Positions 7,890 to 29,405 of a DNA stretch of 36,193 nt are shown piece by piece. Position 1 is the first letter of the stretch. Each line of letters begins with the position of its first letter. The stretch covers positions 1 to 36,193 of the forward strand of contig JAJPWX010000006.1 in NCBI GenBank assembly GCA_021205755.1, given 5' to 3'. Made by a program: the position numbers and the translations under genes. The stretch comes from Lachnospiraceae bacterium. GTDB lineage: Bacteria; Bacillota; Clostridia; Lachnospirales; Lachnospiraceae. The notes under the pieces were generated by a model that was given only the letters and a program-made list of their open reading frames with translations, searched no databases and was not told where the DNA came from.

Positions 7890-10019
7890 CTATCTTTTCA
7901 GTTCAATCTCCATCGGCTTTTTCCCGGTCAGCTCCACGCTCTTTTCATCCGGCTGACTGCAGCCCACGTAGATTTTACAGGTACCGCCTGCTTCCCTGCG
8001 AACGCCCCCGGCGTCAACTACGGTAAACGCATTCGCCGCAAGCGGCAATGTCACCTGCTTTGTCTCGCCCGCTTTTACAAAGACCTTCGCAAAGGCCGCA
8101 AGCTGCGGATTCGGCACCGCATCCGCGGAATCCGTGTTTTTCACATAGACCTGCACGACATCCTGCGTGTCCTGGGCTCCATGATTGGTAACCTCAGCCA
8201 CGACTGCATTCTTTCTAACGCCATCCGTCCCACTCTGGAGTTCAGCCGTCGCATCCCCGGTCTCTACCCGCGCCGCAGTCACTTCTACGTCTCCATAAGT
8301 CAGTCCGTATCCGAACGGATACTGCGCTTTCCCGGTCATATAGCGGTACGTGCGCCCCTGCATGGAGTAGTCGGTAAATTCCGGCAGCTCTTCCAGCGTC
8401 TCATAAAAGGTCACCGGCAGCTTCCCGGACGGAGAAACGTCGCCAAACAGCACACGCGCCGCCGCGTGTCCGCCCTCACAGCCCGGATACCACAGATCGA
8501 GAATCGCATCGAAATGCTCCGCCGCGTAGCTTAAGTCAATGTCGCTGCCTGCTGTCAAAAGCAAAATGACCGGCTTGCCGCAGGCTGCCACGGTTTCCAT
8601 CAGCTCCCGCTGCGCCTTTGGAAGCTGCAAATCCTCTTTATCGCCGGATGCGTACCGGTTCCCGGTATCACCCTCTTCGCCCTCAAGTGTCTCATCCAGG
8701 CCAACGCACAAAAGCACTACATCGCTGTTCTTCGCGACAATCCGCGCCTCGGACAGGCGATCCTGCTCCTGCGATAGCGCCTCAGTCCGGTCCTTGGACA
8801 GATGGCAGCCGGCACTTGTCAGCACACGTACACTCGTCCCCAGGTAATCCTGAATGCCCTCCTGGATGGTGACATAGCGTGAAGCTGTGCCGTGATAGTT
8901 CCCGGCGAGCGCCACGCGGCTGTCCATATTCGGCCCGATCAGACCGATTGTTTTTATCTTTTCTTTCTGTAATGGCAGGATTCCATTGTTTTTCAGAAGA
9001 ACGAAGCTCTCCTCCGCTGCTTTTTGGGCCAGTGCCAGATGCTCCGGCGACTCGACCTCCGTGTAGGGGATCGTGTCATACTCGCTGCCGTCAAACAGGC
9101 CGAGCAGATACCTCGTTGTAAAGAGGTGCACAGCCGCCTCGGTAATCGTCTCCTCCGTTACCAGCCCCTCCTGGTACGCTTTCATAATATAAAGGTAGGT
9201 ATTCCCACAGTTCAGGTCGCAGCCGGTATTGACCGCCAGCGCCGCAGACTCTGTCGCGTTCTTTGTCACCAGATGATTCTCATGGAAATCGCGGATAGCC
9301 CAGCAGTCGGAGACAAAATGTCCCTCAAATCCCCAGTCGCCGCGCAGCTTCTTTTGCAGCGCTTTGCTCGCGCAGGCTGGCTCGCCGTTCACGCGGTTGT
9401 ACGCGCCCATCACAGCCTCCACGCCCGCCTCCTGCACCAGCGCCTCAAACGCCGGAAGATAAGTCTCCTCCATATCCTTCGCCGTCGCTTCCGCGTCGAA
9501 CTCATGACGGAGTGCCTCCGGTCCGGAATGTACCGCAAAATGCTTCGCACAGGCCGCCGCTTTCATCGTCTCGCCGTCCCCCTGCAGCCCTTTTACAAAG
9601 GCCACGCCCAGGTGGCTGGTCAGGTACGGATCCTCCCCGTATGTCTCATGTCCGCGCCCCCACCGCGGGTCGCGGAAAATATTCACATTCGGCGACCAGA
9701 ACGTCAGCCCTTTATAAATATCTCTGTCCCCTTCAGAAGAGAACGCGTTGTACTTCGCACGCCCTTCCGTCGAAATCGTGTCTGCGATCTCACCGATCAG
9801 TTCGGTATCAAACGTCGCGCCAAGCCCGATCGCCTGCGGGAACACGGTCGCCTGGCCTGCGCGGGCCACTCCGTGGAGCGCCTCATTCCACCAGTTATAC
9901 GCCGGAATCCCCAGTCTCTCAATCGCGGGCGCGTCATAGCGAAGCTGGCTGGCCTTTTCCTCTAATGTCATCTTCGAAACAAGCTCCTGTGCCTTACTTC
10001 GCGCCTCTTCTCTTTTCAT
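7890..10019 (-). CDS. Glycoside hydrolase family 3 (beta-xylosidase/beta-glucosidase)
   Basis: A 709-residue cytoplasmic GH3 enzyme with no signal peptide. Residues 1-300 are the TIM-barrel domain, with the KH pair at 159-160 and the nucleophile D238 in HFVSDCWAI. About 340-560 is the alpha/beta sandwich domain that supplies the acid/base residue, and about 610-700 is the fibronectin III-like domain. The SDC form of the nucleophile motif is commoner in xylosidase-like GH3 proteins than the SDW form of classical beta-glucosidases, so beta-xylosidase activity is my first guess. It lies downstream of the CUT1 permeases and would split imported oligosaccharides. GGAGG lies about 11 nt before the ATG. 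About 490 nt of repeat-bearing DNA separate it from the permease gene. Confidence 0.93.
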   Translation of the reverse strand: MKREEARSKAQELVSKMTLEEKASQLRYDAPAIERLGIPAYNWWNEALHGVARAGQATVFPQAIGLGATFDTELIGEIADTISTEGRAKYNAFSSEGDRDIYKGLTFWSPNVNIFRDPRWGRGHETYGEDPYLTSHLGVAFVKGLQGDGETMKAAACAKHFAVHSGPEALRHEFDAEATAKDMEETYLPAFEALVQEAGVEAVMGAYNRVNGEPACASKALQKKLRGDWGFEGHFVSDCWAIRDFHENHLVTKNATESAALAVNTGCDLNCGNTYLYIMKAYQEGLVTEETITEAAVHLFTTRYLLGLFDGSEYDTIPYTEVESPEHLALAQKAAEESFVLLKNNGILPLQKEKIKTIGLIGPNMDSRVALAGNYHGTASRYVTIQEGIQDYLGTSVRVLTSAGCHLSKDRTEALSQEQDRLSEARIVAKNSDVVLLCVGLDETLEGEEGDTGNRYASGDKEDLQLPKAQRELMETVAACGKPVILLLTAGSDIDLSYAAEHFDAILDLWYPGCEGGHAAARVLFGDVSPSGKLPVTFYETLEELPEFTDYSMQGRTYRYMTGKAQYPFGYGLTYGDVEVTAARVETGDATAELQSGTDGVRKNAVVAEVTNHGAQDTQDVVQVYVKNTDSADAVPNPQLAAFAKVFVKAGETKQVTLPLAANAFTVVDAGGVRREAGGTCKIYVGCSQPDEKSVELTGKKPMEIELKR

Positions 10020-10181
10020 ATCGCCCCGTGCCTCCTGTCATCCTGTTTTCGTTCTTAATTATTTCTATTAGATCAGCACCTGTCTTTTCATTTCGATGCT
10101 GTTCTAAACAGCAGGCCACAGACCGCCTTCTTCGAAGGCTATATGCCGCTTGCGCGTCATATGTCTGAGGCTTGATGGGCG

Positions 10182-10235
10182 TCTCCGTTTCACTTCGGTC
10201 GGCGCTAAGCGAACGTCCACTGGACGTTCAGCGCC
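10182..10235 (+). repeat. REP-like hairpin module 1
   Basis: The module starts TCTCCGTTTCACTTCGGTCG. It then folds as GGCGCT / AGCGCC (outer stem) and GAACGTCC-ACT-GGACGTTC (inner stem), with an unpaired AAGC on the 5' side. It replaces the three-base loop TTC seen in copy B of the surrounding repeat. Confidence 0.75.
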
Positions 10236-10282
10236 CGCCCATCCCGAAATGAAAATACAGCCTTTAGCAGGTAAACCTGCAC

Positions 10283-10334
10283 ATCTCCGCTTCGCTCCGG
10301 TCGGTGCTAAACGAGCGCCGCTGGCGCTCAGCAC
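10283..10334 (+). repeat. REP-like hairpin module 2
   Basis: This has the same architecture as module 1: ATCTCCGCTTCGCTCCGGTC, outer stem GGTGCT / AGCACC, 5' bulge AAAC, and inner stem GAGCGCC-GCT-GGCGCTC. It occupies the place of the three bases AGT in copy B (12553-12555). Confidence 0.75.
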
Positions 10335-10420
10335 CTGTCTTTTCATTTCGATGCTGTTCTGAACTGTTTAGAATATAGCAAAAAATACCGCCATTGCTCT
10401 CCGTATTTATTGCTTAATAG

Positions 10421-10456
10421 CTGTCAGAAATTGCTCATTTTTTGCCGTATCTGTCA
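10421..10456 (-). promoter_or_regulatory. Possible operator: two CTGTCA repeats 30 bp apart
   Basis: In the AT-rich gap between the GH3 gene and the permease gene, CTGTCARAA occurs at 10421 and 10451, exactly three helical turns apart. AraC-type regulators often bind direct repeats, so the local YesN-type protein is a candidate. The wider 10366-10512 region shows no gene and no clear terminator for the permease. Confidence 0.3.
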
Positions 10457-10512
10457 AAACCAGGATGTATTTATTCCTATTTTTGTGCATATTTGTAATA
10501 GTTACACTTTCT

Positions 10513-11412
10513 TTATTCCTTCACACCGCCAATCGTAAGACCTGTCACGAAGTACCGCTGCAGGAACGGATACAGGCAGATGATCGGAAGCATGGTAAGG
10601 ATGGTCGCCGCCGCACGGATCGAGTTCGGCGTGACCGCTCCGGAGGTAGCGGAATTCTTTGCACTCTCCAGGCTGGTGGTCTGCGACATCACCGATGACA
10701 GCAGCTTCATCAGCTCATACTGAAGGGTGGTATACTGTTCACTCATGCGGTTGTACAGCATGGCGTCAAACCAAGAATTCCAGTGGCCAACCGCCACAAA
10801 CAGCGCGATTGTCGCGTATACAGGCTTGCACAGCGGAGAAATGATTTTCACAAATATGGTCATATAGCCTGCGCCGTCCAGCTGCGCGGATTCCTCCAGC
10901 GCGTCCGGAAGACCTTCCATGTAGGTTCGAAGCACCAGCATATTAAAGGCGCTGATCATTCCAGGAATCACATATACCCAGAAAGAGTTTGTCAATCCCA
11001 GATTTTTGTAAAGAAGAAACGTCGGTATCAACCCTCCGTTCACATACATGGTAATGACCCAAAACAGGGAAAGCTGCGAGCGAAACAGAAAGCGTTTGCG
11101 GCTCACAATAAACGCAAGCAGAGCATTCGTGGCAAGAGATGCAAATGTACCGATTACCGTTCTAAGAACAGTGATATACGCACCCGTTGCAATACTCTCT
11201 TTATGTAAAACAGTGATAAAATTCTTTAGTGTGAATACTCTGGGCCACAGGTAAATGCCGCCCCGGAGCGCATCCGTTCCGTCATTAAACGCAATCGCCA
11301 GTGTATTTAATACCGGATAGAGCGTAATCACCACAAACGCCACCATGAACAACGTATTAAATATGACAAAAGCTCTGTTTGATACGATTGATTTTATTCT
11401 GTCTTTATCCAT
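10513..11412 (-). CDS. Carbohydrate ABC transporter permease, CUT1 (LplC/AraQ-like)
   Basis: A 299-residue inner-membrane subunit with about six transmembrane segments. The EAA loop, which contacts the ATPase, is EESAQLDGAGYMTIF followed by Pro-Leu, and the typical C-terminal FVTGLTIGGVKE ending is present. It should pair with the permease 13 nt upstream and the solute-binding protein to import oligosaccharides. No ATPase gene is nearby, so a shared MsmK-type ATPase elsewhere in the genome is expected. AAGGAGG lies 7 nt before the ATG at 11412. The upstream extension to 11478 overlaps the other permease gene and was rejected. Confidence 0.93.
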   Translation of the reverse strand: MDKDRIKSIVSNRAFVIFNTLFMVAFVVITLYPVLNTLAIAFNDGTDALRGGIYLWPRVFTLKNFITVLHKESIATGAYITVLRTVIGTFASLATNALLAFIVSRKRFLFRSQLSLFWVITMYVNGGLIPTFLLYKNLGLTNSFWVYVIPGMISAFNMLVLRTYMEGLPDALEESAQLDGAGYMTIFVKIISPLCKPVYATIALFVAVGHWNSWFDAMLYNRMSEQYTTLQYELMKLLSSVMSQTTSLESAKNSATSGAVTPNSIRAAATILTMLPIICLYPFLQRYFVTGLTIGGVKE

Positions 11413-11425
11413 CCGTATTTCCTCC

Positions 11426-12367
11426 TTAGAACAACCGTTCTTCGCCGGTTCTCTTGGCAATTTCATTCGCCACCACAATCAGAATGATACTGACGACGCT
11501 CTTAAAAATACCGGCTGCCGTACCCAGAGAATAATCCATCTGGCTGATGCCCCAGTTCAGCACATAAATATCGATGGTCTGAGACACCTTCTGCACAAGG
11601 CCATTGGTGAGCAAATACTGTATTTCAAAACCGGCGTTTAACACATTGCCGATGTTCATCAAAAGCAAAATCATAATCGTCGGGCGAATCCCCGGAAGCG
11701 TAATATATTTAATCTTTCCCCAGCGCCCCGCGCCGTCAATCGCGGCCGCCTCATAAAGACTGGGGTCAATCGCCGTAATGGCGGCGAGATATACAATCGC
11801 GTTCCAGCCGGTTTCCTTCCACACATTGGCAAATGCCACAATCGGCCAGAAATAAGCCGGATACGCGAAAAAGTTAATGCCAGTCTTGATAATATTGAGT
11901 TTTAACAAAACTTCATTTACAATGCCGGACGTAGATAAAGCGTCATGCAAAATGCCGGTAACAATAATCCATGACAGAAAATGCGGAAGATAAGAGATCG
12001 TCTGTATAATCTTTTTCCCCCATTTGGAACGAATTTCATTTAACAGAATCGCGAACAAAATCGCCATGACGAAAGTGGAAACCAGATTCAGAACACCCAT
12101 CGCCAACGTATTTCGGATGACACGAATAAAAGTACTATCCGAAAAAAGCGTCTGAAACTTTGCAAGTCCGACAAACTGTGAATGCAGAAAACCATCCTTC
12201 GGCTTATAATTCTGAAAGGCCATAATCCATCCGCCCAGAGGCAGATAGTAAAAAACAAAACCGTATACCACAAAAATCCCCGCCCAAATCAGGAGAAATT
12301 TTTGCCGTTTTAATTCTTTTACCGTAATCTTTGTGCCTGATTTTTGTTTTTTGGGTTTACGAGCCAT
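11426..12367 (-). CDS. Carbohydrate ABC transporter permease, CUT1 (LplB-like)
   Basis: A 313-residue membrane subunit with a Lys-rich cytoplasmic N-terminus and six predicted transmembrane helices. The EAA motif reads YEAAAIDGAGRWGKIKYITLPGI. LplB and YteP-type permeases are its relatives. It forms a heterodimeric channel with the LplC-like protein. AAGGAGG precedes the ATG. Repeat B and the terminator of the binding-protein gene lie immediately upstream, so the two permeases may be made in smaller amounts than the binding protein. Confidence 0.93.
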   Translation of the reverse strand: MARKPKKQKSGTKITVKELKRQKFLLIWAGIFVVYGFVFYYLPLGGWIMAFQNYKPKDGFLHSQFVGLAKFQTLFSDSTFIRVIRNTLAMGVLNLVSTFVMAILFAILLNEIRSKWGKKIIQTISYLPHFLSWIIVTGILHDALSTSGIVNEVLLKLNIIKTGINFFAYPAYFWPIVAFANVWKETGWNAIVYLAAITAIDPSLYEAAAIDGAGRWGKIKYITLPGIRPTIMILLLMNIGNVLNAGFEIQYLLTNGLVQKVSQTIDIYVLNWGISQMDYSLGTAAGIFKSVVSIILIVVANEIAKRTGEERLF

Positions 12368-12391
12368 TTTCCCCTCCTTGTTCTATTGCAG

Positions 12392-12586
12392 CTGTCTTTT
12401 CATTTCGATGCTGTTGATGCTGTTCTGAACAGCAGGCCACAGACCGCCTTCTTCGAAGGCTATATGCCGCTTACGCGTCATATGTCTGAGGCTTGATGGG
12501 CGTTCCGCCCATCCCGAAATGAAAATACAGCCTTTAGCAGGTAAACCTGCACAGTCTGTCTTTTCATTTCGATGCTGTTCTGAACT
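12392..12586. repeat. Dispersed intergenic repeat, copy B (no modules)
   Basis: This is a direct copy of the element at 10080-10365 without the two hairpin modules. It carries a 9-nt tandem duplication (GATGCTGTT twice) near its left end. The two copies lie in the same orientation and bracket exactly the two permease genes. Confidence 0.85.
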
Positions 12587-12591
12587 TTTTG

Positions 12592-12643
12592 AAAAAAAAG
12601 AGCAGTCACAGATACTGATGCACACCGCAACTGCCCTTTTTTC
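12592..12643 (-). terminator. Terminator after the solute-binding protein gene
   Basis: On the minus strand GGGCAGT pairs with ACTGCTC (one G-U) across a ~25-nt loop and is followed by eight T residues. Partial read-through would give the usual excess of binding protein over permease. Confidence 0.7.
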
Positions 12644-12700
12644 ATTTAAGTTCTATACAATTTCAAACACGCACGCTTACCTGTTTTGAAAAGCCGCCCA

Positions 12701-14395
12701 TCAGCCTTCTGCTGCCGCGATCCGGCGATCCAGCTCTTCCTGCATCTCATCCAGGAAGTCCTGCGGATTGCAGCCCTCATAAGCTTCCATGTACTGCTCC
12801 CACAACGAATCAAAGTCATCCGACATAACAACCTTCGGCAGCCACTCATGCTTTACTTCGCCCATCTTATTCCAGGCAACGCCGCCGGCGGTCGCTGTCG
12901 TCATCGAGTTGGAATAAGAGTACATCGGATACCACGGGCCAGTCTCTACCTTTGCGGAGCCAAGCATATCCACATAATTTCCTGCGCCATATGCTTCGAA
13001 GCAGGCTACAAGCGGCTCTGCCAGATCACTAAAGAACTCGGAGCTCTGCTGGCTAGGCTGCATTGCGTTGATTCCATCCCTGCTGGTACCCAGCCACTGC
13101 GGGAAATAGGAATAATTGCATATATGAGACGCCTGATACTCGGAGTCACTCCAGTTTGCTCTCATCTCATCTGTCCGGTAAAACAGTCCGTCGTCGTCTA
13201 CCAGATAATCAACACCCTCAACGCCCCAGAAGCGCAGGTTGTGAATATCCTGATCCAGAAGGTCACTCATAAACTTAAAAGCAGCGTCCACATTCTTGCA
13301 GCTTGTGGTAACCGCGATTCCGCTGGAGTTGTTCAGCGTGTCGCCGTAGGAATGCCACTGGTTTTCCATTCCCTCGTCAATCGTAAGGCCTAGCGGAACA
13401 AAATTGCAGCCTTCATCCGCCAGTCCGGTCTGTGTAAACACATCATTTACGGTATAGGCAAAGTTCCACCACTGGTCACACATACCCAGTACACGGCCCG
13501 TAGAAAGCTTTGCGGTATACTCATCTGTGGTCTGCGTCGCAAATTCCGGATCGATCATGCCCTTATTATACTCTTCATTCAGCTTGCGGAAATACCGAAC
13601 CGCGGTATCTGTCGTATTGTAATCAACAATCGTCAGCGTATCCGTATCTACGATTACAGAACCATCGTTTGGATATCCATCCAGGAACTGCGGAGCGTTC
13701 TCCAGGCAATAGTAATACCAGTCATAGCAAAGAATGGTATAAGGAATATACTCTGTACCGTCATCCATCGTCGGATTCTCCGCTACATAGCTTTCGATCA
13801 GGTCAAAATACTGATCCAACGTCTTGATCTCCGGATAGCCAGCCCACTCAAGGACTTTCGCCTGAATCCAGAATGCCTCATCATTGTGCGTCGTCGTTTT
13901 GTCTTCGCCATAAGAGTTCTGGAATACATTCGCCCAGTAAATCTTGCCGTCATCCTGGCGGAATTTATCCCACTCTTCATCTGAATACATTTCCTTCAGG
14001 TTCGGATACTGCTCAAGATAATCATCCCACGCAATCAAAGCGCCTGCTTCGTACAGAGAAACCATCGCATCATTGCCATTAATGAAATCCGGATACTCTC
14101 CGCCGGCAACAATCGTACCGATCGCTTCTGAGCTGGTCTGACCGGTCAGCCAGGTCTCATCACATGACGCACCCGTCTGCTCCGCGATCATTGCGGCGAT
14201 CTCATTATCACTGTTGATTTCTGAACCAGACATTGCAAAAAATGCACTGAATTCAACAGTTTCCTCATCCGCCATCGCGGTCAGCGTCGTAAACTGTCCC
14301 ATCATGCCGCCCAGACTGCCGGCTACCATCATCCCCGCTGCGCTGGCTGCTGTCCCCTGCAGGAATTCTTTTCTGGATATCTTTTTCTGTGACAT
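12701..14395 (-). CDS. Extracellular solute-binding protein, family 1 (LplA-like)
   Basis: A 564-residue sugar-binding protein that starts the ABC operon. The two lobes contain many aromatic residues (for example CYDWYYYCLENAPQF and CDQWWNFAY), as expected for stacking on sugar rings. The N-terminus is unusual: SRKEFLQGTAASAAGMMVAG resembles a twin-arginine signal with RK in place of RR, ending near TAMADE as a type I cleavage site. There is no lipobox cysteine, although Gram-positive binding proteins are normally lipoproteins. AAGGAGG lies 8 nt before the ATG. The substrate is probably a plant-derived oligosaccharide, judged by the GH3 and esterase genes downstream. Confidence 0.92.
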   Translation of the reverse strand: MSQKKISRKEFLQGTAASAAGMMVAGSLGGMMGQFTTLTAMADEETVEFSAFFAMSGSEINSDNEIAAMIAEQTGASCDETWLTGQTSSEAIGTIVAGGEYPDFINGNDAMVSLYEAGALIAWDDYLEQYPNLKEMYSDEEWDKFRQDDGKIYWANVFQNSYGEDKTTTHNDEAFWIQAKVLEWAGYPEIKTLDQYFDLIESYVAENPTMDDGTEYIPYTILCYDWYYYCLENAPQFLDGYPNDGSVIVDTDTLTIVDYNTTDTAVRYFRKLNEEYNKGMIDPEFATQTTDEYTAKLSTGRVLGMCDQWWNFAYTVNDVFTQTGLADEGCNFVPLGLTIDEGMENQWHSYGDTLNNSSGIAVTTSCKNVDAAFKFMSDLLDQDIHNLRFWGVEGVDYLVDDDGLFYRTDEMRANWSDSEYQASHICNYSYFPQWLGTSRDGINAMQPSQQSSEFFSDLAEPLVACFEAYGAGNYVDMLGSAKVETGPWYPMYSYSNSMTTATAGGVAWNKMGEVKHEWLPKVVMSDDFDSLWEQYMEAYEGCNPQDFLDEMQEELDRRIAAAEG

Positions 14396-27411: not shown

Positions 27412-27420
27412 CCCGCGCGG

Positions 27421-27474
27421 TTGCTGCGTGCCAGTGGCACGCGTTTAGCAACGACCGGAGCGGCAGCGGAGATA
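27421..27474 (-). repeat. REP-like hairpin module 3 (inverted)
   Basis: Read on the minus strand this is ATCTCCGCTGCCGCTCCGGTC, outer stem GTTGCT / AGCAAC, bulge AAAC, and inner stem GCGTGCC-ACT-GGCACGC. The fold equals modules 1 and 2 at 10.2-10.3 kb, but nearly all stem pairs have changed together. Confidence 0.75.
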
Positions 27475-27575: not shown

Positions 27576-29405
27576 TTAATAGAACCAGTGGTCTCCTATC
27601 TGAATGCCTTTGTTCGCGGTGGTGTTAAAGTAAAGGGCACCACCTGTCGGATCCTCTCCGGCGATCGCTGCCGCCGCCGCGGTATAGCAGGTGCTGGGGA
27701 CACCATTCGCTAATGCCGTAGCCAGAGCGCCGCTGGAAGCTGGGGAGAATTGGCCGCTCTGATAAATCACTTCGCTGATCGTATTCGGGAAAGAGGAGCT
27801 GCTCACGCGGTTCATCACAACCGCGCCGACTGCAACCATTCCTTCATAACTCTGATTCCCTGCCTCACAGTAAATCAATGCAGCAAGGAGTGTCGTGTCA
27901 TCCACGCTGGCGGAGGAGCTTGCTGCCGCAGCTTCGGTCTCGGTCGAAGCCGTTGTCTCCGCTTCTGTATAAACTGTCTCGGTCTCAGTATATACGGTCT
28001 CTGCTTCTGTGTATACCGTCTCTGCCTCGGTCGACGCAGTCGTCTCAGCCTCTGTGTAAACGGTCTCCGACTCTACGGAAGCCGCAGCTGCTGTCTCAGA
28101 CACCTCATAGGAAGCAGTCGAAATCGCATTGCCATCCGCGTCATAATAGGTATCTGTATCCGCGTCATAATATCCTTCGTCATCCGAAGAGGAAGAACTG
28201 CTGCTCGAGGAAGAGCTTGTCTCCGTCTGAGTCGCTTCGGTAGCGGTCGTCTCCGTCTGTACAGCCTCTGTAGCGGTCGTCTCGGTCTGTGCAGCTTCCG
28301 TCTGCGTCGAAGAAGAACTGCTCGAGGATGAACTGCTACTTGAAGAAGAGCTGCTGCTCGACGAAGAGCTCGAGGACGAACTGCTGCTCGACGAAGAGCT
28401 GCTGCTCGATGAGCTGCCCGACGAGGAACTACTACTCGAGGAACTGCCGCTCGAAGAGGATGAGCTCGATGGCTTCGATCCGCTCGAGGACGAACTTGAG
28501 GAAGAGCTGCCCGTCGAAGAAGAACTGCTGCTCGAAGTGGTTCCGCTCGAGGAAGCTGCCTCTGTCTCTGTATAAGTATATGTATCCGTGTCTGTCTCTT
28601 CCGCGTAATCGGTTTCACCGTAGATATCTACCAGCTCCACCCGTTCGCCGTCCTTCGGCGTCGCGGACTCAAACAGCATGACGCTCGTCACATCTTCACT
28701 CGAAACGTACGCGGTCGTGTCTTCACTGTACCAGATCTCAATCCAGTGGCCATAATCATTCACCACCTGATAGACTTCACCGGCATCCATCGTATCCATC
28801 ACGGTAGCCGCGTCGTCGGACGTATAAATATTCACATCATCCCACTCGGCGCGAACGCCTTCCGCTCCGTAATACTCCGCAATCTCTGCCACATCTGCGT
28901 CAAAAAGCAAATACTGGGTCATCACATATCCGGTGATCCCATTTGAATAAAACTCCGTCCAGGTCTCTCCCCGCTCAAGCACCCATACTGCTGTGCCCTT
29001 GTAAAGATAGCCAAGAACTTCACTCTCTACATCCGCAGCACTCCGGATAATCACACCGGTGTCTACATAATCACTGTTCGTAATCGCGACCTGCGCCCAG
29101 GCGTCTTCCTCCTGATACGCCACCGCGAGATAAAGGGGCTCTTCGTCCTCTTCCGTCTCGGTCTCCGTCTCGACCTCTGTCTCACTCTCAACAGACGCCG
29201 CATCTGCGGCTTCCGTCTCAGCCGCCTCAGTCTCTGCTGCGTCCGTCTCAGAAACAGCGGCTTCGGATGCCTCTGCCTCCTCCGACGACAGCTCTGCACT
29301 GACCGCGACCGTCTCGCCGTTCGCCATCACCAGAGCGCCAGTCACGGAAGCGATACACATAACCGCTGTCATCCCGAGGGCAACCCCGACTGTCCTTTTC
29401 CTCAT
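27576..29405 (-). CDS. Secreted cell-wall hydrolase (SleB/CwlJ type) with SH3-like domains and poly-Ser linker
   Basis: A 609-residue exported protein. A signal peptide covers about residues 1-40 (MRKRTVGVALGMTAVMCIAS, cleavage near VSA). An acidic Glu/Thr/Ala-rich stretch follows, then two SH3b-like domains (about 90-160 and 165-235) that may bind peptidoglycan. Next come a poly-serine tract of roughly 80 residues and Thr/Glu/Ala repeats of the type VYTEAET. The C-terminal Hydrolase_2 domain (about 500-609) starts with LLAALIYCEAGNQSYEGMVAVGAVVMNR, whose Glu in YCEAG is the likely catalytic residue. The family cuts cortex or vegetative peptidoglycan. The ATG at 29405 was chosen for its SD, GGAGG, 9 nt upstream. 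The promoter starts inside the longer frame. Confidence 0.92.
   Translation of the reverse strand: MRKRTVGVALGMTAVMCIASVTGALVMANGETVAVSAELSSEEAEASEAAVSETDAAETEAAETEAADAASVESETEVETETETEEDEEPLYLAVAYQEEDAWAQVAITNSDYVDTGVIIRSAADVESEVLGYLYKGTAVWVLERGETWTEFYSNGITGYVMTQYLLFDADVAEIAEYYGAEGVRAEWDDVNIYTSDDAATVMDTMDAGEVYQVVNDYGHWIEIWYSEDTTAYVSSEDVTSVMLFESATPKDGERVELVDIYGETDYAEETDTDTYTYTETEAASSSGTTSSSSSSSTGSSSSSSSSSGSKPSSSSSSSGSSSSSSSSSGSSSSSSSSSSSSSSSSSSSSSSSSSSSSSSSSSSSSTQTEAAQTETTATEAVQTETTATEATQTETSSSSSSSSSSSDDEGYYDADTDTYYDADGNAISTASYEVSETAAAASVESETVYTEAETTASTEAETVYTEAETVYTETETVYTEAETTASTETEAAAASSSASVDDTTLLAALIYCEAGNQSYEGMVAVGAVVMNRVSSSSFPNTISEVIYQSGQFSPASSGALATALANGVPSTCYTAAAAAIAGEDPTGGALYFNTTANKGIQIGDHWFY
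28313..28555 (-). repeat. Poly-serine coding tract with mixed codons
   Basis: The tract encodes almost only Ser, with a few Gly, Thr, Lys and Pro. All six serine codons (TCG, AGC, TCT, TCA, AGT, TCC) occur within short distances of each other, so it is not a simple microsatellite. Confidence 0.85.

Follow-up and report, generated by a model that had tools for sequence, protein, structure and literature searches.

Filled and empty sites of a ~52-nt mobile hairpin in and outside a MITE-like element of Lachnospiraceae

The spread of tiny, gene-less palindromes through genomes has long been a puzzle, and it is chiefly for REPs with RAYTs that an answer exists. Rickettsia palindromic elements (RPE) insert into protein genes in frame and are tolerated there, and the modular repeats ERIC and BOX have optional inner pieces at fixed points. 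GTAG-REPs follow two rules, namely that an unpaired GTAG-type tetranucleotide lies 5' of the stem (PMC3733652; PMC8266576), and that the RAYT (Y1) gene has a copy of the repeat on either side, the two being inverted relative to each other, as described in PMC2817692; the main text of PMC3733652, which assigns the intragenic repeats of R. conorii to RPE-4 and RPE-6, makes no mention of Clostridi-, Lachnospir- or Firmicutes. The GC clusters (GC42 in yeast) and double-hairpin elements of mitochondrial DNA are hairpins of ~40 nt with rapid turnover and merging palindromes; AG or ACT direct repeats are described as flanking the GC clusters, and RNA-mediated ligation and retrotransposition as the favoured routes (PMC4478555), the mechanism of their spread being unsettled. 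Here, we describe a hairpin module of 52–54 nt which takes the place of one to three bases at its target.

The window, that is, the whole stretch of 36,193 nt that was analysed, is an entire contig of a 4.02-Mb Lachnospiraceae bacterium genome in 136 contigs, and contains two copies of one repeated element, filled and empty, respectively, at sites A and B (Table 1). Alignment of the two states confirmed the earlier claim that modules of 54 and 52 nt each replace three bases in one repeat copy, the net gain being 51 nt at site B and 49 nt at site A. The arms GATGGGCG / CGCCCATC around site B are identical in the filled and empty copies; at empty site A, GTC can equally be read as AGT, one base further left. 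The site B module (TCTCCG...AGCGCC on the plus strand) comprises a GGCGCT stem, an 8-bp inner stem with an AGT loop, a GCTT bulge and the tail GACCGAAGTGAAACGGAGA. Both element copies lie among minus-strand genes for binding-protein-dependent transport. One of them separates a permease gene from its upstream neighbour; the other is situated between the second permease gene and a GH3 glycosidase gene. With the 286-nt repeat as query, 86 matching pieces were recovered from the same genome, and a module core pattern matched 40 times as compared to once for the reversed-pattern control. The filled/empty observation is real and not due to chance. A third module of the window sits in a different repeat (CGCCCGCGCG / module / AGCGTCCGG.GACAGCCGG), located between a GH3 gene and a cell-wall hydrolase gene, the frame of which includes a repetitive coding stretch at 28189-28548.

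Table 1. Positions of modules, empty sites and element copies within the window
Feature	Position	Strand	Remarks
Module at site B	10182..10235	(-)	54 nt; covariance model match E 3.0e-17
Module at site A	10284..10335	(-)	52 nt; 7-bp inner stem, tail GACCGGAGCGAAGCGGAGA
Empty site B	12503..12505	(-)	triloop GAA (+ strand TTC) between 8-bp arms
Empty site A	12554..12556	(-)	GAC between ACA and TGT (+ strand GTC)
Host element copy 1, A and B filled	10097..10368	(-)	ends approximate
Host element copy 2, A and B empty	12423..12590	(-)	ends approximate
Third module	27420..27472	(+)	53 nt; different repeat family, flanks CGCCCGCGCG / TAGCGTCCGGTGACAGCCGG

The preliminary description rightly recognized a single repeated element, but its length of 186 nt is too great: 30 nt of it belong to a partial second copy, which is missing from most other copies; judging from copies fetched from the same genome, the intact host element measures ~165 nt. 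In the window, the end of copy 1 is overlapped by a partial second copy (about 10080-10109) and another one (12392-12415) adjoins copy 2. On the minus strand, the element extends from GTAACAGTTCAGAACAGCA to TGCTGTTCTGAATAGTTAC, terminal inverted repeats that form helix 1 of its predicted structure (97.7% of cells paired), and it has no long gene. A signal of an 8-bp target-site duplication was detected across 22 copies, with a mean best match of 5.59/8 versus 4.79 in shuffled data (0/1000), the score being the best of 16 offsets per copy and the shuffles being treated alike; the duplication is imperfect in many single copies. The element folds far better than shuffled sequence (z -9.4). Among 20 empty copies, 98.3% of cells are paired in a structure of 64 pairs and 7 helices, which was derived from one of the tested sequences and is thereby favoured; 17 pairs have changed on both sides (shuffled mean 6.2; 0/500 shuffles), and the 50 double-change cells (shuffled 11.9; 0/500) are located in five of the seven helices. 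Given its inverted ends, duplication signal and fold, the 165-nt host element is MITE-like with a strongly conserved fold. The label ‘MITE-like’ given in the preliminary description is thus apt for the element and not for the module, which, unlike MITEs, has neither inverted ends nor a target duplication. The element would spread separately as a MITE with modules carried along, so that part of the module copy number would represent hitch-hiking. The structural model also leaves room for the possibility that the 165-nt element could be a stable RNA.

The presence of the host element varies at orthologous places among the closest relatives. At the downstream site, the element is absent in G015 and G020 and partial in G021, and the contig of G019 stops at this point; at the upstream site, an element whose A module is interrupted is present in G021, a short form containing one hybrid module in G015 and G019, and a mere remnant in G020. 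A known Rfam family was rejected as the identity of the element, a scan of window positions 9500-13000 at E up to 1 having yielded four sub-threshold matches, none of them over a module. A plasmid- or phage-borne source was likewise rejected, with no match to the filled element in the plasmid and phage collections searched. Two further features of the element may be recorded: the seven-helix fold, shared by copy 2 and the 20 aligned copies, is unusually well conserved for a MITE, and one element copy (L041) carries at its 3' end a tandem run of ~35-nt units (GCAGCAGCGGTCTGYGGCCTGC).

The host element has four fillable sites, A to D, and in its various copies module positions are filled or empty at exactly identical points. 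Rather than all other copies being filled and having decayed ends, which the preliminary description had named as the sign of simple deletion, 21 of the 29 near-full copies in the own genome are empty at both A and B and 8 are filled; the 29 were drawn from 42 element stretches after 13 partial, rearranged or module-only ones had been left out, and 27 of them were parsed (21 empty, 6 filled), C64b and C87 being called filled by reading. Across the genus, a strict site-B pattern identified 147 empty sites in 32 of 47 genomes, and the loop, among the matches listed (75 of 147), is 3 nt long in 73 cases, 4 nt in one and 5 nt in one. Among the filled contexts that were matched, orientation is invariable, being the same in 11/11 distinct B contexts, containing 7 module sequences, and in 9/9 A contexts. 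Thus, at sites A and B the module occurs on one strand only, and this is so even though the arms of site B form a perfect palindrome. In the filled/empty pairs that were read, the module is not bordered by short direct repeats, and there is no target-site duplication; instead, 1-3 nt are lost, a result obtained from few pairs compared at the DNA level, mostly within the host element. L010 and L021 are readable as a loss of 1 nt rather than 3 nt. The first base of the module is G and its last is A, which is common for targets too, so that its exact limits are ambiguous.

These patterns bear on a scenario which reverses the direction of change, whereby modules would be ancestral in the 165-nt element, slippage or palindrome deletion would leave a 3-base loop, and gene conversion would spread both states. 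Long palindromes are prone to deletion, and two own copies (L017 and L019) have GAGA at site B, which could, judging from its sequence, be the scar of a module-end deletion. On a backbone tree of 34 copies (27 own and 7 chosen from relatives; no well-supported branches), site B occupancy requires 9 changes versus a shuffled mean of 9.4-9.6, and hence is not clustered by descent; this allows losses, and fits repeated gain and loss or gene conversion alike. Indeed, gene conversion, rather than new insertion, may shuffle module copies, and many filled host-element sites may descend from few insertions, as suggested by the tail RAGTGRAACG shared by 6 of the 7 distinct B modules. In six copies (L025, L026, L045, L027, L122 and L123), a single module has the left flank of one site and the right flank of a different one, the element centre between them being lost. 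These hybrids are probably products of recombination between modules, which would delete the intervening DNA, and the first three, resembling deletions that join modules of different sites, speak for loss. Against ancestral modules stand the different module subtypes found at one and the same site, the lack of flanking direct repeats in the pairs read, and the occurrence of modules at unrelated sites and nested within each other, so that we regard this scenario as improbable. Of the earlier suggestion that the small hairpins either move or are precisely lost, the first part holds for the module in general; precise loss is possible at individual sites.

The module itself consists of a bulged stem-loop of 33-35 nt followed by a 3' tail of ~19 nt, which mostly ends in GGAGA or GTAGA. 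Alignment of 26 modules revealed an unpaired G(G/T/A)AG at the 3' end behind a linker of ~14 nt, whereas the 5' end starts directly with the stem; there are no terminal inverted repeats, the single hairpin being on the 5' side and the single-stranded tail on the 3' side. The inner and outer stems covary, with 99.5% of cells paired and 18 double-change cells (0/500 shuffles). A covariance model was built from 15 of the 26 modules, all of the 54-nt class, because MAFFT misaligned the two stem lengths. When the best candidates, up to 123 per genome, were scored with this model, at least 1,321 matches at E <= 0.001 were obtained in 43 of the 47 genomes of the genus; the number per genome ranges from 0 to 104, with 20 or more in 23 genomes, and where it is one or two, the matches are possibly due to chance. 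With a module-bearing relaxase locus as DNA query, at least 29 of 299 sampled genomes of the family matched at 1e-10, nearly always over the module part, this being a lower bound since two candidates were scored per genome. A 24-base pattern matched at least 116 stretches in named genomes, including Oliverpabstia, Sporofaciens and Hominisplanchenecus, among them genomes titled Oliverpabstia intestinalis, Sporofaciens musculi and [Eubacterium] cellulosolvens. Among the matches listed, genomes with the module core are mostly Lachnospiraceae, the others being named as Clostridiales, Clostridia and Eubacterium and a few as Oscillospiraceae. Six pattern matches in viral contigs were rejected by eye, as the short pattern lacked the hairpin and tail around it.

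Beyond the four sites of the host element, reading of the loci placed modules within tRNA-like sequence, in further repeat families and at palindrome tips elsewhere, as well as inside each other, up to three deep. Some modules lie within protein genes. In L216 and L095, a 54-nt module is in frame within a 473-aa relaxase frame, yielding GKG-RWTSSGRPFSADRSGAET-GYARW, whereas P0001, a homologue with 90% identity over 96%, has GKG-A-GYARW, with a single Ala at the module position. One residue has become 18, a net increase of 51 nt, which is the same arithmetic as at site B of the window. Among the best 120 of 7,995 relaxase homologues, the insert is present in one, P0014, which probably represents the same locus as L228. 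Because the other 119 of these best homologues are listed without the module peptide, the peptide reads, on this protein comparison, as a gain; the relaxase case has already weakened the proposal that modules are ancestral and were lost. A protein search at the family level retrieved only distant relaxases of no more than 57% identity. In L219, a module is in frame in an rlmD homologue at about residue 509, just past the methyltransferase domain (TIGR00479 at residues 71-493). The module peptide was listed in none of 120 rlmD homologues, many of which end before the site; of 25 examined, 8 continue through the site without an insert. In both genes, the empty state is known at the protein level only. 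Elsewhere, a module introduces a stop into a frame that we take to be integrase-like (L151), or lies antisense to a frame matching the beta-galactosidase GalB (L163). Several of the long frames over modules are antisense, and some are possibly spurious. In view of the unlinked sites, the nesting, the in-frame insertion in the relaxase and the turnover between close relatives, the conclusion that the ~52-nt hairpin is a separate mobile unit is well supported.

What the module recognizes was approached through its flanks, using 54 independent-looking sites drawn from 174 distinct flank pairs. Pairing between the two flanks of a site is stronger than that with shuffled partners at all lengths considered (8, 12, 20 and 30 nt; 0/200 each), with a mean over 12 nt of -5.71 versus -4.47 kcal/mol, and 13-17% of sites fall beyond the 5% tail of the shuffles. 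Position by position, pairing is raised at few offsets only; the base before the module is G in 33/54 sites and the base after it is C in 27/54. Palindrome tips are thus favoured, not required, and the effect is modest; some sites, such as that in rlmD, are not palindromic. The modules at large show no strand bias with respect to neighbouring frames, the left frame, picked by length alone, being co-directional in 43 of 79 cases. The single orientation at palindromes, together with this lack of bias, points to a step on single-stranded DNA. The substrate would be the hairpin that the module forms on one DNA strand, exposed either in a cruciform or while the DNA is replicated. A trans-acting enzyme would cut a second hairpin at its tip or close to it, and the module would replace the loop. 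Our preferred reading, to which we assign a probability of about 0.6, is that the module is a non-autonomous mobile hairpin which inserts strand-specifically, prefers palindrome tips and would depend on an enzyme supplied in trans.

Nesting and tip preference also speak for an RNA route like that proposed for yeast mitochondrial GC clusters, with the transcribed hairpin joining the tips of further RNA hairpins through cleavage and ligation or through reverse transcription. Such a route gains from the covariation seen in both module and host element, and from the left-hand neighbour frame of the host element running in its sense direction in 19/25 cases. The modules themselves, in contrast, show the co-directionality of only 43/79 given above; of the 15 modules inside open frames of at least 200 aa, 10 are antisense to the longest frame, L163 with its GalB frame being an example, and no reverse transcriptase was recognized by eye in the 15 widest clusters of neighbouring frames. 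An RNA route thus appears about as improbable as ancestral modules followed by loss.

A DNA-level mobilizer was sought among tyrosine transposases and neighbouring genes. If modules were REPs, they would be mobilized by a RAYT/TnpA-REP tyrosine (Y1, HUH) transposase cutting single-stranded DNA beside the hairpin. Strand-specific insertion fits this scheme, and the E. coli enzyme is described as recognizing a bulged hairpin that has an unpaired GTAG close by (PMC8266576). The own genome has two Y1 genes, and across the 47 genomes, 25 with and 22 without Y1 matches, the numbers of Y1 and modules are weakly rank-correlated (Spearman 0.29, p 0.048), which counts against a non-RAYT reading; Y1 is present in 15/23 genomes with at least 20 modules versus 10/24 others (Fisher p 0.15). 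Yet the tag of the module lies 3' of the hairpin, behind the linker, and not 5' of the stem. Moreover, eight genomes with at least 20 modules are devoid of a Y1 match, among them G010, which is 100% complete and has 29 modules, and G015 (98%, 52), whereas the module-free G029 has two; these absences are no proof, as most of the assemblies are split into tens to hundreds of contigs and IS elements can be missing from such drafts. Linkage to a RAYT-type gene, a type that the preliminary description had proposed to look for, fails: among 30 Y1 loci scanned, chosen from the 50 match pieces listed, a module core is absent nearby in 28, two have one each, and none has two. Finally, bases are lost at the target, and the Y1 mechanism is not known to entail such loss. 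Mobilization by Y1 is therefore unlikely, albeit marginally less so than the RNA route, and membership in the REP/RAYT family was rejected in view of the misplaced tag, the module-rich genomes without Y1 and the Y1 loci rarely near modules. IS91-type Y2 transposases were rejected as well, with matches in 9 of 47 genomes and none in the own genome, and so was a recurrent neighbour gene, no transposase having been recognized by eye when the open frames of module loci were clustered and the 15 widest clusters inspected. No mobilizing gene was identified among the Y1, Y2 and neighbour-cluster candidates.

Set against the known systems, the non-autonomous hairpin that we favour would belong with the small non-autonomous mobile palindromes; no description of it was found in the literature searched, which covered few subscription papers. 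Like REPs and BIMEs, whether GTAG- or CGTC-tagged, it is short, palindromic and multicopy, has compensatory stem changes, and is mostly intergenic and sometimes intragenic, and bulged hairpins are present in E. coli REPs too. Unlike them, it measures 52-54 nt, carries its tag, mostly GGAG or GTAG, at the other end, and combines target loss with a lack of RAYT linkage. The earlier term ‘REP-like’ is hence acceptable loosely, for a short palindrome in many copies, and does not extend to a 5' GTAG-type tag or a RAYT gene flanked by repeats. As in RPE and intragenic REPs, palindromes occur inside protein genes; RPE are longer and unrelated in sequence. From ERIC and BOX, to which it may be likened, the module differs in that the inner piece is mobile elsewhere and nests. 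Mitochondrial GC clusters offer perhaps the nearest working analogy, minus the AG duplication: the module nests as they do, without duplication and with loss of bases, and is bacterial, not organellar. A bolder possibility, which we put forward tentatively and consider doubtful, although likelier than a Y1-driven origin, is a bacterial class of mobile hairpins that preferentially targets a structure (the tip of another single-strand hairpin) instead of a sequence, the loop being swapped for the module in one orientation by a new enzyme, neither RAYT nor IS91-type. If so, each module would offer a new tip, such that repeats would grow as Russian dolls, and hairpin-on-hairpin insertion may also have given rise to the 165-nt seven-helix element. 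In any case, one hairpin whose filled, empty and nested states can be read at numerous sites, two of them in frame within genes for a relaxase and a homologue of an rRNA methyltransferase, makes for a compact natural system. With mobility clear and the RAYT link missing, a different enzyme or a replication-based route becomes testable in cultured Lachnospiraceae, and in-frame units of 54 nt would provide for the addition of 17 codons to a protein in one stroke.

Modules also occur in the company of other small repeats. In L101, L202, L205, L230 and L191, they interrupt tRNA-like 3' halves (e.g. CGGGACGCAGA / module / CGCAGGTTCAAATCCTGTCGC). In L359, L360, L362, L363, L053 and L120, the module in turn harbours an insertion of a second small hairpin family (CCTCGCCGGGTGGCATCCCGCACTTCGTGCGGGATATTC), in these loci always directly after the T(T/A)AG(C) of the module; the first four represent the orthologous site of L086. 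A third hairpin family (CCCGCGAAGCAACGAGCCAAGTAGCCGTGCTTGCACGGATATTTGGC...), the outer part of which has dozens of matches in relatives, carries a module at its tip in L079 (C87 near 1579), where it lies in a presumably acetyltransferase-like gene that is uninterrupted in G021 and G013 (L369 and L366).
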